This document shows, one piece after another, positions 3,815 to 20,278 of a stretch of 23,064 nt of DNA (positions are counted from its first letter, which is position 1; each line of letters starts with the position of its first letter). The stretch is from positions 1 to 23,064 of the IMG/VR virus record IMGVR_UViG_3300042542_004722; one strand, 5' to 3'. A model generated the notes under the pieces. It was not told the DNA's origin, did not search any database, and saw only the letters and a program-made list of their open reading frames with translations. The stretch comes from a virus. Position numbers and translations under genes: made by a program.

Positions 3815-6702
3815 CAGACAATCTCCTCATACTGGGCATCAGAGATGCGCGTGGTTTCCAGCGTGGCGGTCCAGACAATTCGCGTAGCCGCCACGCCCGT
3901 CACTTGCGGCGTCACCGTCTGCGCAGTGGTGTCAATCAGCAGCGTGGCATCGGCGGTGCCGGTGACCTCAGTATCCGTGCCGATGGTCTGCACAGAACCT
4001 TGCAGCGTCACGTTGCCGCCCGCATCCCGGTAATAGGTGGCGCGACGCTGGTAGCTGATGCGCTGCCCGTCCGCCGCGCCAAAGACGCGGCCAACGATTA
4101 TGGCCTGAACAATAAGCGTTTCGCGTTCGCCGATATGCACGCGCGGTGCCAGCGCCAGCGGCGTGGCATCAGTGGTCACACCCCGCGCGGTGATGCGGCG
4201 TGGCGAGAATGGCGCACGCGCCGCGGCCTGCATCCGGTCCAGGCCGGTGATGGCATCGCGCCGGACGCCTGCATTAGCCGTAGTGCCAACCATCAGCGCG
4301 CCCGCTTCAAGCGCGACCTTACTGGTGTTGTTCGCGCCCATGGCCGGCGAGAGGTTGCCGGCGCTGAGGTATTCAACGCGGCGAAGGCCCGAGAAGACCG
4401 AAACGCCATCAGCCGTCGCGACCGCCAGGCGCCGCGATTGTTCGGAAAATGACAGGTCATTTACTGCGCTGCTGGTGCCACCAAGGAACGCCTTGGCGCC
4501 AGCATCAAACAGAGGCGCTTCATCCCGATACATGCGCGCGATCTGCGCTGGCGTGGGGGCATAGGCGGCGATGCGGAAAAGCGCCAAAGAAACATTCACG
4601 CCGGGGACAGAAAGTGCAGAAGAAATACCGACGCGCAGCGGATTAGACGCCGATACGCTCATGCTGGCGGCGATAGTCGCCTCACGCACACCGTCAATCC
4701 AGATTTCTGCAACACCTGAGCGCCTTGATGCCACCACAAATCGCCAGACGGAAGGGTTGGCCTGCGAAGTGCTGACTACGGTTGGGTAGGAAGAACCATC
4801 GGTGCAGGCGAAGCTGAACGTGTTGCCGGAAGTCATTTGAATATAAAAGCCCGCCCCGGCGCCAGTACCCGCCGCGCGACGGTCAAGCAAGTATTCAGTA
4901 TTGATGCCGCCGCGCACCCATAAAGCAATGCTGAAATCACCCGTGCCAAAATCGAGAAGCGAGCTATATGGCTGTTCGAGATAGTTGCTGGCGCTCCACC
5001 CAGAAAAGGCCACCACGTCATTGCCGGTGCCGACCGGGGAGCGCGACAAGCTGCCAATGGCGTGCAACCCACGAGCGCGATAGCTGCGGTCCGCCACGCC
5101 GGCGCGGATGGTGATGTTATCGAATTCGGCATAATTAGTGCCGGTGACAGTCGTTGCATAAAGCAGCAGGGTCGCAGACGTAGCTTCTGCGACAAATTGA
5201 ACCCGCGCCCCAACCGCATCACTAGACGAACCGACACCCGTTGCAGCAATAACCAAAAACCAGGCTCCGGCGGTGCCAATGTATGCGTCGAAATCGACCG
5301 AATATGTTTCGCCTACTGTTAAGCCGGAAACAACTATGCCGGCATCGGGGTCATTGACACCGTTGCGAGCCACACGAATACGCCCACCAGTACTAGTGAT
5401 AGTAGCCGAGCGCGTCGAACTGAACCCCGCCACACTTGTTCCATCCAGCGTCAGCCGAATATCGTTGGCCAATGCGCCAGTCCGCCCGTCGCAAAGCGTG
5501 GCAAGGCGAATGTCGCCGGGCTGCCAGCCGGTGGCGTGAGTCTGCGCCGCGACCGCGACCATGCCGGTGCTTGGGTTGGTGGCGATTTCGTGCGCAAACT
5601 GCACCGCGCCCAATGCGCCGCCCACCGCATTTGCGACCAACGATGACTGCCCGCCAATCACATAGTTAATCGCCTGCCCGTTGGCTGCATAAGTAGCGAC
5701 CCGCGCCCCCGCTTCTGCCGCCGTAGCATAGGGCAACGCATAGACACAAAGGTTTGTTGTGGCTGCGCCGGGGATGCCGCTAAGGTGCGTATCTGAAAGA
5801 AACGAAACCGCGCTATGGCCCAAGGCATCCGTCAGGCTCACCACCCGCCCATCGGGGTGAATAACGCTGATACCACCCGCAGTCGCGACCGCCACAGTTG
5901 GGATCGGCAGGCCCGCGCCATCGCGCATCGCGCCGGGAAGGACGCGCACGGCGACATCCAAGACATCATTGCTGGCAAGGCCAGCCGAAGCAACATTGAT
6001 GGTAATACCGACCGCACGTGTGGCGATGCTCCTCGCGGTGATCTGATATAGGCTAACCAGATGCCTGCCCACGACATCGCGGGCAAAGTCATAAACCAAA
6101 AGGCCTGCTGAACCAGTGAGCAGGATGGTGCCATTCAGCGCAGCCGCACGCCGCAGGCCGGTGCCGCTGTATAAGTTGGTCGCTGGCACCACCATCCACA
6201 TGCGCGGCGCCCCGCTACCATCCAGATCGTGCAGATCATAAATCGTCAGGCTTGCTTCCCGCGCCACCATCAGCGCAACAGCCGGGAAGTCCCGCTTGGC
6301 GCCGCGCGTGGCAGTGTTCAACGCTTCTTGATGCCAGCTTGTGTGCTGGGATTGCATCCGCCATGCGCCGCCGTCGCTATCCAACCGCGTGTCATAGATG
6401 AACACGTCCCGAACATCAGCCGCCGTGACAAGGTTTGCCACTGCTTCCGGGTAGATCAGGTTGGCCGTACTGCCCGCCGTGACGCCCGCCACCTGCGCCG
6501 CAGCCTGCGCCGCGCTTACCGCCGCCGCCGCCGCACTAGCCGACGCATTAGCGGCCTGCACCGCGCCTTGTGCGCTCGACGCCTGCGCGGCAAAATTGCC
6601 AAGTAGGTCGGGCAGATTGGTGGCGTACCCGTAAGGAGAGAAGTCCGATTGCTGGTAAGTCTTGCCGTTGACCACTTGGGGCCAGGTGTAAGTGCCGCTC
6701 AT
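3814..6702 (-). CDS. Tail fibre / receptor-binding protein with LamG-like domain
   Basis: A 962-aa protein downstream of the tail-tip genes. Residues about 38-75 form an Ala/Ser/Gln-rich helical stretch, typical of trimeric fibre stalks. Residues about 95-410 hold repeated beta segments suggesting a propeller (for example LLVYDFARDVVG, AVATAGGISVIHPDG). Residues about 440-535 look like a carbohydrate-binding beta-sandwich (GLTVGETYSVDFDAYIGTAG). Residues about 565-730 resemble a LamG/concanavalin domain (FGTGDFSIALWVRG, then WRFVVASRRSG and EIWIDGVRE). Propeller-like strands reappear after 740 (RRLAVATADGVSVF). Such proteins bind host surface glycans. It ends with a 1-nt overlap with the next gene. 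Domain calls are by pattern; no enzyme active site was recognised. Confidence 0.75.
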   Translation of the reverse strand: MSGTYTWPQVVNGKTYQQSDFSPYGYATNLPDLLGNFAAQASSAQGAVQAANASASAAAAAVSAAQAAAQVAGVTAGSTANLIYPEAVANLVTAADVRDVFIYDTRLDSDGGAWRMQSQHTSWHQEALNTATRGAKRDFPAVALMVAREASLTIYDLHDLDGSGAPRMWMVVPATNLYSGTGLRRAAALNGTILLTGSAGLLVYDFARDVVGRHLVSLYQITARSIATRAVGITINVASAGLASNDVLDVAVRVLPGAMRDGAGLPIPTVAVATAGGISVIHPDGRVVSLTDALGHSAVSFLSDTHLSGIPGAATTNLCVYALPYATAAEAGARVATYAANGQAINYVIGGQSSLVANAVGGALGAVQFAHEIATNPSTGMVAVAAQTHATGWQPGDIRLATLCDGRTGALANDIRLTLDGTSVAGFSSTRSATITSTGGRIRVARNGVNDPDAGIVVSGLTVGETYSVDFDAYIGTAGAWFLVIAATGVGSSSDAVGARVQFVAEATSATLLLYATTVTGTNYAEFDNITIRAGVADRSYRARGLHAIGSLSRSPVGTGNDVVAFSGWSASNYLEQPYSSLLDFGTGDFSIALWVRGGINTEYLLDRRAAGTGAGAGFYIQMTSGNTFSFACTDGSSYPTVVSTSQANPSVWRFVVASRRSGVAEIWIDGVREATIAASMSVSASNPLRVGISSALSVPGVNVSLALFRIAAYAPTPAQIARMYRDEAPLFDAGAKAFLGGTSSAVNDLSFSEQSRRLAVATADGVSVFSGLRRVEYLSAGNLSPAMGANNTSKVALEAGALMVGTTANAGVRRDAITGLDRMQAAARAPFSPRRITARGVTTDATPLALAPRVHIGERETLIVQAIIVGRVFGAADGQRISYQRRATYYRDAGGNVTLQGSVQTIGTDTEVTGTADATLLIDTTAQTVTPQVTGVAATRIVWTATLETTRISDAQYEEIV

Positions 6703-16254: not shown

Positions 16255-16605
16255 TTAGGCGGCCGTGGCGTTCGGGCGACCCAAGCGCACCAGGATTTCC
16301 GTGGCGCCGGAGGCATAGTTGCCCGGGCCAATGGCCCAGCCGATGCAGTTATTGCTGGTGGCAGTGGCGGTGACATTGCCGGCGGTATTGTCCCAGAACA
16401 CCCGCACGCCTTCATTGATGGCAACACCCGTTGCCTTCGGCAAGCGAAACACACCTTCGGTCATGATGGCGACGTTGGCGCCAGATGCAGCGGCATGAAT
16501 CGCCACCCCAAACAGCAGGCCAACCAACACGCCAGCGCCGGAAGCCACTGCAGCCGGCGCGGTAACGGTGATAACATCAGACTCACCAACCTTATTTGTA
16601 GCCAT
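16255..16605 (-). CDS. DUF2190 capsid cement/decoration protein
   Basis: The 116-aa protein has the recognisable DUF2190 layout: DVITVTAPAAVASGAGVLVG near the N-terminus, LFGVAIHAAASGANVAIMT, GVFRLPKATGVAINEG, VFWDNTAGNVTAT, and a C-terminal GWAIGPGNYASGATEILVRL. Proteins of this family follow the major capsid gene and bind the outside of the shell as small cement proteins. It is preceded by a 68-bp gap with a stem-loop after the capsid stop, which could lower or adjust its expression. The start is the ATG at 16605 (MATNKVGESD). Confidence 0.8.
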   Translation of the reverse strand: MATNKVGESDVITVTAPAAVASGAGVLVGLLFGVAIHAAASGANVAIMTEGVFRLPKATGVAINEGVRVFWDNTAGNVTATATSNNCIGWAIGPGNYASGATEILVRLGRPNATAA

Positions 16606-16673: not shown

Positions 16674-18023
16674 TCAGCCCAGGTTCGCGGCCATGGCGCG
16701 CGGCTGTACCGCCGCGGCGCCAAAATCGAACACCACGCGGAAAGTCATGCCGCTATAGCGGATGTCTTCGGCGCTGGTGATGGTGGGCGCGCGCTGGCCT
16801 TGCAGATACGCAATTTCCACTCCGCGAATATCGCCGCGGCACAGGTAGTAAGGATCATTCCCGGTATCCAGGAAGGGTTCCATAACCAGTGAAGTGCTTG
16901 TGCGGTAGGCGTCGGGCAGCACCGCGCCAGTAGCGGTTGGAACAATGCGGTTGCCCAACAATTCCAGGGCTGTGTCTTCTTCATCCGGGCCAACCAGCAG
17001 CACCATGGAAGAAGGCGGCGGCAGCGGCGCGGCACTTTCACCCGCGCGGGCAGGGCTGGTTTGCTTGGTCAGCAGCGCGCGCAGCTCAGCGAAGGTGCCG
17101 GCGGCCAGGTTGCCAGCCGTGCCCAGGTTATTGCGGCCTGCCGCGAACAGCGCCGTGGCGCCACCCGCCGGCCAGTTGGCATTGGCGGTCAGGATGCCGA
17201 ACACCACGCGGCGCAGCGCCGTGTAGCCAGCCAGGGCCGCACCCGAAAGCACATCCTGGAAGGCGCGCGTATCGTCATTCACCAGCGCCTGGCGCGTCAG
17301 CGCCACAAGGCGGCCGCGTTCCTGCACCGCATAGGTCTGGCCTTCTTCCGCGATTGAGCCATAGGTATAAGGCGCGCCTTCAGAAATGGCGGCCACTTCC
17401 GGGAATTGGCCAGCAAAGGCAGAAGTGATGGCTTTGAAATCCGCCACATCAACTTCGCGCGTCCAAGAAGCCCATGTGTTCGGGTATTGGCCAAACAGGC
17501 CCTGCACAGATTTGTTCGCGGAATTGACAAGGATCAGCGGGAAGTCGCTGGTGGAATGCTGCGCGTTGATCCGCCCAGACAGAACCATTTCCGCCAGATC
17601 GGCGCCGGACATGCGATGCACGTCCTTCACACCATTGGCCACCGCGATTTCACGCATAAGGCCATGGAAACCCATATTAGCGAATTCGCGGCTTTCCGCC
17701 GGCGGCGCCTGGTTGGAAAGCTGCGCGGAAAGCGCACCAGTCCAGCGGGCGCGCAGCGTATCACGTTCATCACGGATCACGCTGACCACGGCGGAATTCG
17801 GCATGATCGGGGCAGGGCTGCGCGCCGCCACCGCTTCAAGCGCGGCTTCAAGCGCGGCTTCGCGCGTGGCACCGCGTTCAATCTGCGCCAACGCAAATTC
17901 AGCCGGCAGGCCGTTGCGCTCAGCAATGCCGCGCACTTCAGCAATGGAAGCCGCCGCCGGCACAACCGGGGCAGGGGTTTGGGCCGGGCTATTCCCGCCG
18001 GCCTGGGCGATGGATTCGGACAT
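16674..18023 (-). CDS. Possible separate scaffold-capsid product from internal start
   Basis: Codon 228 of the fusion is ATG (MSESIAQAGGNSPA) and has AAGGAG exactly 6 nt upstream, one of the best ribosome binding sites in the window. Translation from here would give a 449-aa product lacking the protease, containing the Pro/Ala linker, the helical delta-like region and the capsid fold. This would give many more capsid subunits than protease. It recalls the nested C/Nu3 arrangement of lambda. Expression is inferred from sequence only. Confidence 0.55.
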   Translation of the reverse strand: MSESIAQAGGNSPAQTPAPVVPAAASIAEVRGIAERNGLPAEFALAQIERGATREAALEAALEAVAARSPAPIMPNSAVVSVIRDERDTLRARWTGALSAQLSNQAPPAESREFANMGFHGLMREIAVANGVKDVHRMSGADLAEMVLSGRINAQHSTSDFPLILVNSANKSVQGLFGQYPNTWASWTREVDVADFKAITSAFAGQFPEVAAISEGAPYTYGSIAEEGQTYAVQERGRLVALTRQALVNDDTRAFQDVLSGAALAGYTALRRVVFGILTANANWPAGGATALFAAGRNNLGTAGNLAAGTFAELRALLTKQTSPARAGESAAPLPPPSSMVLLVGPDEEDTALELLGNRIVPTATGAVLPDAYRTSTSLVMEPFLDTGNDPYYLCRGDIRGVEIAYLQGQRAPTITSAEDIRYSGMTFRVVFDFGAAAVQPRAMAANLG

Positions 18024-18704
18024 GCCGATCTCCTTGGCTACTGCCGGCGAAATTGCCGGCGGGTTGGAAACTACCGGCGCCGCTACCGGCACCGCATCGC
18101 GCGCCGCGCGCACCAGCCCACAAAAGGCTGCGGGCGCGGCGGCGTAACGATTGGGGTCAAGCGCCGCAAAGGCGCGAATTTCTGCGGGCTCCGCCGTTTC
18201 ACTAGCAAAACCTTCCGCCACGGCCATATCCGCATCAAACCAAGTTTCGGCGCGCATCAAGGCGGCCACGGTTTCTTCATCTTTGCCGGATTTCCCAGCA
18301 TAGGTGCGGCGATAGGCGCTGCTGATTTGGTCCAGCACATCGGCCTGTTGGCGCATGGTTTCCGCATCGCCCAGCGCGCCACCCCAAGCTTCATGGATCA
18401 TCAGAAAGGCATTACCCGGCATCACAATCCGGTCGCCCGCCATGGCGATAAGGCTGGCTGCTGATGCGGCGATGCCTTCCACAATCACGGTCTTCGGCCC
18501 TGCATGGCGCGCCAGCATGTTGTGGATGGCAATGCCTGCCAAAGCGTCACCGCCATAGGAATTGATCGAAATGGTCAGCGGTTGATTGGCCGAAAGCTTT
18601 TTCAACTCCGCCGCCACACCGGCGGGCGTAATGTCCCACCCCACATCACCCAACAGCGAAAGCACCGCAGCCTGTTCGGCCGCAGCGCGCATTTGCACTG
18701 GCAT
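16674..18704 (-). CDS. Prohead protease / major capsid protein fusion
   Basis: A 676-aa ORF. Residues about 10-200 are a ClpP-fold serine protease: SYGGDALAGI (49-58), likely nucleophile Ser81 in GIAASAAS, likely His104 in LMIHEAWG. The third catalytic residue is less clear (E153 in AETWFDAD or a nearby Asp). Residues about 205-250 are a Pro/Ala linker; 250-345 is helical and may act as scaffold. Residues about 385-676 are the capsid subunit, with a Mu gpT-like pattern (ISEGAPYTYGSIAEEGQTYA, RLVALTRQALVNDDTRAF). Protease-capsid fusions of this kind are known. The enzyme would cut scaffold and capsid during maturation. The start at 18704 has AAAGGGG 5 nt upstream; an internal start exists at 18023. 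Confidence 0.85.
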   Translation of the reverse strand: MPVQMRAAAEQAAVLSLLGDVGWDITPAGVAAELKKLSANQPLTISINSYGGDALAGIAIHNMLARHAGPKTVIVEGIAASAASLIAMAGDRIVMPGNAFLMIHEAWGGALGDAETMRQQADVLDQISSAYRRTYAGKSGKDEETVAALMRAETWFDADMAVAEGFASETAEPAEIRAFAALDPNRYAAAPAAFCGLVRAARDAVPVAAPVVSNPPAISPAVAKEIGMSESIAQAGGNSPAQTPAPVVPAAASIAEVRGIAERNGLPAEFALAQIERGATREAALEAALEAVAARSPAPIMPNSAVVSVIRDERDTLRARWTGALSAQLSNQAPPAESREFANMGFHGLMREIAVANGVKDVHRMSGADLAEMVLSGRINAQHSTSDFPLILVNSANKSVQGLFGQYPNTWASWTREVDVADFKAITSAFAGQFPEVAAISEGAPYTYGSIAEEGQTYAVQERGRLVALTRQALVNDDTRAFQDVLSGAALAGYTALRRVVFGILTANANWPAGGATALFAAGRNNLGTAGNLAAGTFAELRALLTKQTSPARAGESAAPLPPPSSMVLLVGPDEEDTALELLGNRIVPTATGAVLPDAYRTSTSLVMEPFLDTGNDPYYLCRGDIRGVEIAYLQGQRAPTITSAEDIRYSGMTFRVVFDFGAAAVQPRAMAANLG
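18021..18035 (-). promoter_or_regulatory. Internal ribosome binding site and ATG in protease-capsid ORF
   Basis: The coding strand reads AAGGAGATCGGCATG (18035 to 18021), in frame with the fusion and at the junction between protease and scaffold/capsid parts. The match to the 16S anti-Shine-Dalgarno and the 6-nt spacing are close to ideal. Confidence 0.65.
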
Positions 18705-18715
18705 GGAAGCCCCCT

Positions 18716-20278
18716 TTAAGCGTTTGTGGCCGCAAGCCCCGTGGCGGCAATTTCAATGGCGGAATTCACCGCCGCATCCTGCGCGCCGCCGGAAGCATTG
18801 GCGCGGCGCGGGTCAGCGTCCAGGATCAAACCCAGATCATCATGCAGCGCGTTATCCTCTGCGATTTGCTGCGCGATGGTGGTGGGGTCATAACCCTGTT
18901 CCGTCACCGCCTGGCGCCAGGTCTTCAGCCCCATGCGGATCATGGCCTTGGTGGCCAGCGCATCCTTCATGGGGTCAACAAATTCAAACACAGGCGGGCC
19001 CCAGGCTACCGGATAGGCGTGCTGCGCGGGCGGCAGCGCACCGGCACCAAGCGCAGATGCCACCCAGGCGCGCCAGATCGGTTCGCACATACCAGGGACC
19101 AGCAAATGCCATTGGTCTTGTTCAAGCTGGCGCTTGAAGGCCAGGCGCCCGGCGCGGAGCGATGAATAATTCGCGCCCGAAAGATCACCCGTCAGCAAAT
19201 CATAGGTCAGGCCATAGGCCGCCGCGATGGCGTGCAACTGGTGCTTCGCCAATTCATTGAAGCCGCCGGCGCCGGACGGCGTGGCAAAGGACACATCTTC
19301 ACCGGGCAGCAACCGTTCGATCATGCCGGGCGAAAAAGTTTTCAGTGCATCGCCGGTTTCCGAATCAGTCCCCTCGAGCGGGCCGCGACCAGGCGCGGCG
19401 TCACTGGTGATGAAGGCCGCTAGGCAGGCCTGCACCTTGGCTTGCTGCAGCGCTGCGTCTTCCAATTCATCCAAAGCCATTAGCCGCGTAATGATGGGCG
19501 ACGCCACCGGCACACCCCGCACCTGGCCGGGGCGCGTGGCCTTGAACAGGTGGATAATGTCGGAAGCCGGAACGCGGCGGCGCAGCATGGTGCCGCGCCC
19601 AAAGGTGGCAGCTTCGCCGGGGTGCCGATCAAACAGCCAATAAGCCACCGGCGCGCCCATGGCATTGTATTCGACGCCATTGGCAATCAGATTGTCTTCC
19701 GGTCGGCGGCGTTCTTCATTGTAGGTTTCATCCAGCAAATCAGGTTCCAGCACCTGCAGCGCCAGCGGCACATTCAAGCCGCGCCGGCGCTGTTCGGCAG
19801 GCGCCAGGCGGATCAACTGGATCAGCACTTCACCGGCTTCAGCGCGCGTGCGGGCGGCTAGTGCTTGCAACCCGTAAAAATCCATCTGGCCGGTAACGTC
19901 ACACCGCGCGGACCATGCTTCGAAAGCGGCATCCACCGCGGCATTTTCCGCATTGATCTGGTCGCGTTCTTCCCGCGTTGACAAGGGCACCGCGGAACGC
20001 GGTGTGATGCCGGTGCCGATCTGATAGCCGATCAGCGTATCCAGCGCGGAAGCCGCCCAGGCATTGTTACGCACTAGGTCGCGGGACCGGTCGCGTAGCG
20101 TCTTTAAGCCTTCCTGCACTTCGGCGCGCGGGCCGTTCGCGCTGGAAAGCCGACCCATGCGGCGAGACCGGCGCGCACCATCATAGGCCGCCTGGATGCC
20201 GTGCAGCGCCAGGCGCGCGCGCGCACGGCGCAGCGCGGCTTCCGGCGCAAGGCTGGCAAGCAGGCGGTCAAACCACAT
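18716..20278 (-). CDS. Portal protein (lambda gpB family)
   Basis: The 520-aa protein has the lambda-type portal signature LLTGDLSGANYSSLRAG (residues about 361-377), plus DVTGQMDFYGLQALAARTRA (about 127-146) and AEAGEVLIQLIR, and a basic N-terminus. Twelve copies form the ring at the single packaging vertex through which DNA enters and leaves. It lies between gpW-like and protease-capsid genes, as in lambda (W, B, C), with gaps of only 6 and 11 bp. Length is close to lambda gpB (533 aa). The C-terminal tail (SGGAQDAAVNSAIEIAATG) is Ala-rich and probably flexible. Confidence 0.9.
   Translation of the reverse strand: MWFDRLLASLAPEAALRRARARLALHGIQAAYDGARRSRRMGRLSSANGPRAEVQEGLKTLRDRSRDLVRNNAWAASALDTLIGYQIGTGITPRSAVPLSTREERDQINAENAAVDAAFEAWSARCDVTGQMDFYGLQALAARTRAEAGEVLIQLIRLAPAEQRRRGLNVPLALQVLEPDLLDETYNEERRRPEDNLIANGVEYNAMGAPVAYWLFDRHPGEAATFGRGTMLRRRVPASDIIHLFKATRPGQVRGVPVASPIITRLMALDELEDAALQQAKVQACLAAFITSDAAPGRGPLEGTDSETGDALKTFSPGMIERLLPGEDVSFATPSGAGGFNELAKHQLHAIAAAYGLTYDLLTGDLSGANYSSLRAGRLAFKRQLEQDQWHLLVPGMCEPIWRAWVASALGAGALPPAQHAYPVAWGPPVFEFVDPMKDALATKAMIRMGLKTWRQAVTEQGYDPTTIAQQIAEDNALHDDLGLILDADPRRANASGGAQDAAVNSAIEIAATGLAATNA

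Follow-up and report, generated by a model that had tools for sequence, protein, structure and literature searches.

A predicted internal translation start conserved in the linker of fused protease-capsid genes of Gifsy-2-type phages

The protease-capsid fusion gene of the viral DNA analysed here (IMG/VR record IMGVR_UViG_3300042542_004722, positions 1 to 23,064; 23,064 nucleotides, hereafter the window) very probably encodes two proteins from two in-frame starts. Ribosomes initiating at position 18704 would synthesize a 676-aa protease-scaffold-capsid fusion, and initiation at an AAGGAG-ATG in a disordered linker (18023) would yield a 449-aa scaffold-capsid protein. We propose that both products could co-assemble via their common capsid part, that only part of the subunits would bring protease into the prohead, and that the protease would then cut off itself together with the scaffold segment. 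The candidate initiation signal at the linker ATG is well supported by the sequence comparisons described below. We infer that ribosomes do initiate there and that the short product is made in excess; for the product ratio, the co-assembly and the cleavage, HK97, λ and Mu provide the likely models.

The gene is a single ORF located directly downstream of the portal gene and upstream of small head genes, and its surroundings comprise portal, decoration, attachment and terminase genes (Table 1). Pfam searches placed CLP_protease (PF00574) at residues 34-170 (E 3.5e-25) and Phage_capsid_4 (PF25209) at residues 374-673 (E 5.3e-34, compared with 2.7e-53 for Gifsy-2), while phrog_133 spans residues 4-674 (E 6e-101). 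The N-terminal ClpP domain, the Gifsy-2-class capsid domain and the gene position are those of a Gifsy-2-type fusion (phrog_133). The first-pass annotation had described the gene as a ClpP-fold protease joined to a Mu gpT-like capsid protein. The protease assignment held, but "Mu gpT-like" is valid only at the superfamily level, since the Mu-like_gpT profile matched Gifsy-2 and Pd_22F and remained unmatched at 1e-3 in the 676-aa protein.

An AF2 model of the 676-aa protein, built from an alignment of 58 sequences in which S81 and H104 of the protease domain are invariant, reached a mean pLDDT of 85.6. It places the protease up to about residue 204, disorder at 207-245, a helical part at 254-376 and a capsid-like part from residue 388. 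Foldseek matches of this model were viral ClpP proteases and viral major capsid proteins, and the C-terminal domain is predicted to have the HK97 fold. Because Met228 lies within the disordered stretch, the nested product would consist of the helical segment plus the capsid. A PDB sequence search with this 449-aa product gave no match at E<=0.1, and a separate AF2 model of it, made from 14 aligned rows, was set aside as poor (pLDDT 62).

Table 1. Features of the fusion gene and its neighbours, in window coordinates
Feature	Position	Strand	Description and basis
Full ORF, protease-scaffold-capsid	16674..18704	-	676 aa, ATG start; ClpP-type prohead protease, linker, scaffold-like segment and major capsid protein
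Shine-Dalgarno of full-length start, AAAGGGGG	18710..18717	-	serves ATG 18704-18702
Protease domain, residues 1-204	18093..18704	-	Pfam, alignment, AF2 model
Disordered linker, residues 207-245	17970..18086	-	pLDDT <50 in AF2 model; contains the candidate internal start
Internal Shine-Dalgarno AAGGAG	18030..18035	-	sequence, close relatives, family-wide enrichment
Internal start codon ATG, codon 228	18021..18023	-	sequence, close relatives
Predicted nested product, 449 aa, MSESIAQAGG...	16674..18023	-	scaffold-like segment and capsid
Helical scaffold-like (delta-domain-like) segment, residues 254-376	17577..17945	-	AF2 model; putative function
Capsid core, residues 388-676, Phage_capsid_4, HK97-type	16677..17543	-	Pfam, AF2 model, Foldseek
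Neighbour: lambda-type portal protein	18716..20278	-	profile matches
Neighbour: head decoration (cement) protein	16255..16605	-	profile matches

Two earlier statements about the internal start agree with the sequence: that an in-frame ATG at codon 228, preceded by AAGGAG at a 6-nt spacing, opens a 449-aa product starting MSESIAQAGG, and that its Shine-Dalgarno (SD) sequence is better than many gene starts of the window. Of the 21 gene starts scored in the window, 13 have a poorer SD than the internal one (duplex energy -8.5 kcal/mol) and six have a stronger one. The full-length start has the SD sequence AAAGGGGG (-10.7 kcal/mol). Among the named phages, neither start is consistently the stronger in the way that would favour the internal one, so the excess of the short product stays conjectural. 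The pattern AAGGAGN4-9ATG occurs once in the window against 0.61 expected, and 45 of 100 shuffled sequences contain it at least once. This single occurrence is not significant and, given the shuffling result, the window's sequence alone proves nothing. It fits an alternative in which only the full-length fusion is made, the protease of every subunit excises itself, and the SD-like sequence arises by chance or from coding in an E- and K-rich linker, which favours AGGAG-like codons. We consider this alternative improbable, for reasons that come from comparing the gene with its relatives.

We looked for fusion-keeping close relatives that had lost the internal ATG or the AAGGAG and found none: all 27 viral loci of the window's clade with a covered junction keep an in-frame start with an SD sequence. 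It reads (A/G)AGGAG-6-ATG in 23 loci, AAGGAG-9-ATG in three loci of about 51% identity and AGGAGG-5-GTG in one. One pattern scan had scored L008-L022 as missing the site, which is an artefact, as the full scan recovered it wherever the junction is covered. In another locus of the window's clade (L025:3001-4992), C-terminal capsid segments stand in swapped order, which probably reflects a misassembled contig and possibly a real rearrangement.

For the whole family, we assembled 368 fused ORFs from viral contigs, one genome-contig scan and cultured-phage records, which form 95 clusters at 65% identity. An ATG with an SD match of at least four bases is present in the linker of 86 clusters, whereas equally sized zones from the rest of the same genes predict 21.2. 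Requiring at least five bases leaves 54 clusters against 4.3 expected from same-gene zones; allowing GTG with at least four gives 90 against 36.3. With coarser clusters (45% identity), 23 of 25 carry a linker SD-ATG, compared with 5.2 expected. An SD sequence precedes 89 of 197 linker ATGs (45%) and only 116 of 1680 other internal ATGs (6.9%; Fisher 9e-41). Methionine density is not raised in the linker (0.0281 vs 0.0276). The linker SD-ATGs with at least five bases are also biased in frame, with 48 in frame 0, nine in frame +1 and none in frame +2. Both this bias and the enrichment over same-gene zones argue against a fusion-only gene.

The site is kept in 63 of 70 ClpP and 23 of 25 S78-type fusion clusters, and Gifsy-2 and F10 share a homologous AGGAG-9-ATG. 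The corresponding ATG is codon 188 in mEp460, codon 211 in mEp043 and codon 220 in F10. Across the family, the nested product would measure 425-491 aa (5-95%), with a median of 459 (449 in the window). For the cultured phages S1, LPPA33, PY223 and Shewanella 1/44 (L447-L450), the predicted products comprise 454, 450, 479 and 484 aa, respectively; the SD-like match in Shewanella 1/44 is weak. The few fusions lacking the site, which speak for the fusion-only alternative, are found at tips of the capsid tree. A clear SD-ATG is lacking in the fused L284, L300, L286 and the four-member L295 cluster; L293 is a doubtful case, and the candidate start of L280 lies slightly outside the zone. Three clusters of ClpP fused to PF05065 capsids likewise have no SD-ATG in the linker, which indicates that fusion is possible without an internal start. 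In these clusters (L033, L035 and L045, within L033-L064), ClpP and the PF05065 capsid share one ORF of about 690 aa. The RcKvothe-type fusion of L392 has a frame break just past the internal start (near 4078-4168); the break in the fusion is either natural or due to a sequencing error.

Could amino-acid coding in the linker account for the signal? Relative to the codons, the linker SD occurs in each of the three phases, and it is translated as KE, EE, QE, KG, RG, GE and others, which counts against a coding-driven origin. In all 64 Gifsy-2-type lineages with the motif [EKQ][ED]F..MP (dereplicated at 92%), the SD codon ends in G (GAG 51, AAG 8, CAG 5) although its amino acid varies, and AGGA can form only with that G. 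Elsewhere in these genes, control Glu-[Glu/Asp] pairs use GAG 402 and GAA 471 times (p 3.6e-17 vs the motif), and the codon in the second position of the motif is free to vary. Shuffling synonymous codons with the amino acids fixed gave modest significance across clusters (combined p 7e-4), as expected if amino-acid choice in a free linker carries part of the signal. A best-in-zone version of this shuffle (ATG and GTG, wide zone) was weak, with 2 of 95 clusters at p<=0.05, because the zone is full of candidate starts and the SD is encoded by the amino acids themselves; it was superseded by the same-gene zone, frame and codon-third-base controls. At the sequence level, the internal site is conserved beyond amino-acid constraint.

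The predicted mRNA structure also argues against a fusion-only gene. At the internal ATG, the mean folding energy of 50-nt windows climbs to -6.7 kcal/mol from a level of about -14, and it falls back within 40 nt. Relative to the gene mean, structure at linker SD-ATGs is weaker by 6.0 kcal/mol (n=90; p 3e-17); the corresponding shift is +0.4 kcal/mol for linker ATGs that lack an SD and +0.3 kcal/mol for SD-ATGs elsewhere, so the dip is confined to linker SD-ATGs. The window's own clade shows no opening at the site (-15.3 vs a gene mean of -15.3 kcal/mol); its SD lies partly in predicted weak hairpins, and small hairpins surround the ATG. This lack of opening is the chief argument against an internal start at this specific locus. 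In the window (17985-18075, minus strand), L020, L025 and L026, a small hairpin may form with the internal ATG in its loop (UCGG-CAUGU-CCGA and variants), and GCCGGC repeats lie immediately upstream of the SD in the window's clade. These features may be a control element or merely reflect high G+C.

Protease and capsid are not always fused. In one well-supported clade of the capsid tree (20 rows, support 100/99), they occupy separate ORFs, in which the protease stop and the capsid start often overlap as TAATG. Where an SD is recognised, the capsid ORF of this clade has a GGAGG-ATG start and a length of 483-519 aa. In these split relatives (part of L402-L434, and L446), whose two genes overlap or adjoin each other, the capsid gene begins at the place equivalent to the internal start. 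The cultured representative, Faecalibacterium phage FP_Epona, has a 176-aa S78 protease and a 530-aa capsid protein preceded by AGGAGGT-8-ATG. Its RefSeq record (NC_047910; L446:1483-3619) gives the S78 protease gene the name "major head and protease protein" and lists the capsid gene as "head maturation protease"; the two product names look swapped. Judging from FP_Epona and Pd_22F, the hosts of the uncultured split phages would be Firmicutes. The split clade lies within a group of fused S78-type relatives (one change), which indicates that fusion and fission interconvert at exactly this point.

The protease attached to this capsid varies as well. RcKvothe carries Peptidase_S78 instead of ClpP ahead of the same capsid, with AAAGGA-6-ATG at codon 214. 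On the capsid tree, ClpP and S78 swap several times, and the well-supported branches require three to four such changes. Two unrelated proteases are connected to the same capsid via this linker.

That split relatives carry a ribosome-binding site exactly there could mean that the internal one is an unused leftover of an ancestral two-gene layout. We regard this as less probable still than the absence of a second product, since the split forms are nested inside the fused ones by one change, and deeply diverged fused lineages maintain the site at third codon positions, where a fossil would decay. Least probable of all is that the SD-like stretch, placed just past the protease domain, slows ribosomes for protease folding before the capsid without initiating, as pausing would need neither an in-frame ATG at initiation spacing nor a loss of mRNA structure, both of which are seen, and homologous split genes start translation at the site.

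Dual initiation, the reading we prefer, resembles known head gene arrangements. In the λ C/Nu3 genes, an in-frame internal start after the head protease gives rise to a nested C-terminal product. HK97 uses two genes, gp4 for a separate protease and gp5 for a capsid precursor that begins with a scaffolding (delta) domain. The predicted 449-aa product has the layout of HK97 gp5, but here one frame would serve both proteins; FP_Epona and part of L402-L434 have an HK97-like layout with an S78-type protease. The capsid gene of Gifsy-2 is reportedly tripartite, as Effantin and colleagues are said to have described in 2010. Mu I/Z and the Mu-like PaMx73 also have an in-frame internal start after the head protease that yields a second C-terminal product (PMC4378225). 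As in λ C/Nu3 and Mu I/Z, an in-frame SD-start within the protease ORF is predicted here, from sequence and conservation, to yield a C-terminal product. The nested product of those phages is scaffold only, with the capsid in a separate gene, whereas here it would comprise a scaffold-like segment plus the major capsid protein. Since the reading frame continues across the capsid domain as far as the stop codon, the gene works like the λ and Mu nested genes without being a member of them. Of the λ C/Nu3-like nesting first suggested for it, the in-frame start inside the protease ORF stands, but the nested product is closer to HK97 gp5 than to Nu3.

Gifsy-2 and Pseudomonas phage MD8 share with the window gene a ClpP protease, a scaffold region and an HK97-type capsid in one ORF (phrog_133, PF00574 and PF25209). 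They differ in that each is considered to make one fused product: MD8 gp5 is treated as such, and the MD8 paper makes no mention of an internal start (PMC8508860). The nested start is the addition made here. Actinobacteriophages of clusters EE, EL, AM/AU and AN are described as having the same functional protease-scaffold-capsid fusion, and the passages on these fusions do not mention an internal start (PMC7302621, PMC5513430); their likeness to the window gene is one of functional description. A protease-capsid fusion is also known in Paracoccus. None of the openly accessible papers searched reports an internal start for genes of this kind. A major capsid protein as the nested product, conserved across the family and two protease types, would be new with respect to the literature searched.

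Many temperate phages that infect Enterobacteriaceae, Pseudomonas, Pasteurellaceae and alphaproteobacteria carry genes of this type, which are annotated as one fusion. With more reserve than for the window gene, we favour the view that throughout the Gifsy-2-type family (including the cultured phages Gifsy-2, Fels-1, mEp043, mEp460, F10, S1 and RcKvothe) the major capsid protein comes mainly from an unannotated internal start, and that the disordered linker with its ribosome-binding site is the joint for both ClpP/S78 exchange and gene splitting or fusion. A second start is a plausible answer to the protease dosage problem and would explain how a protease on every capsid subunit is avoided. 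It would also predict where the capsid precursors of dozens of phages truly begin, correcting their annotation, and would link fused, nested (λ, Mu) and split (HK97-like) head gene layouts in one series.
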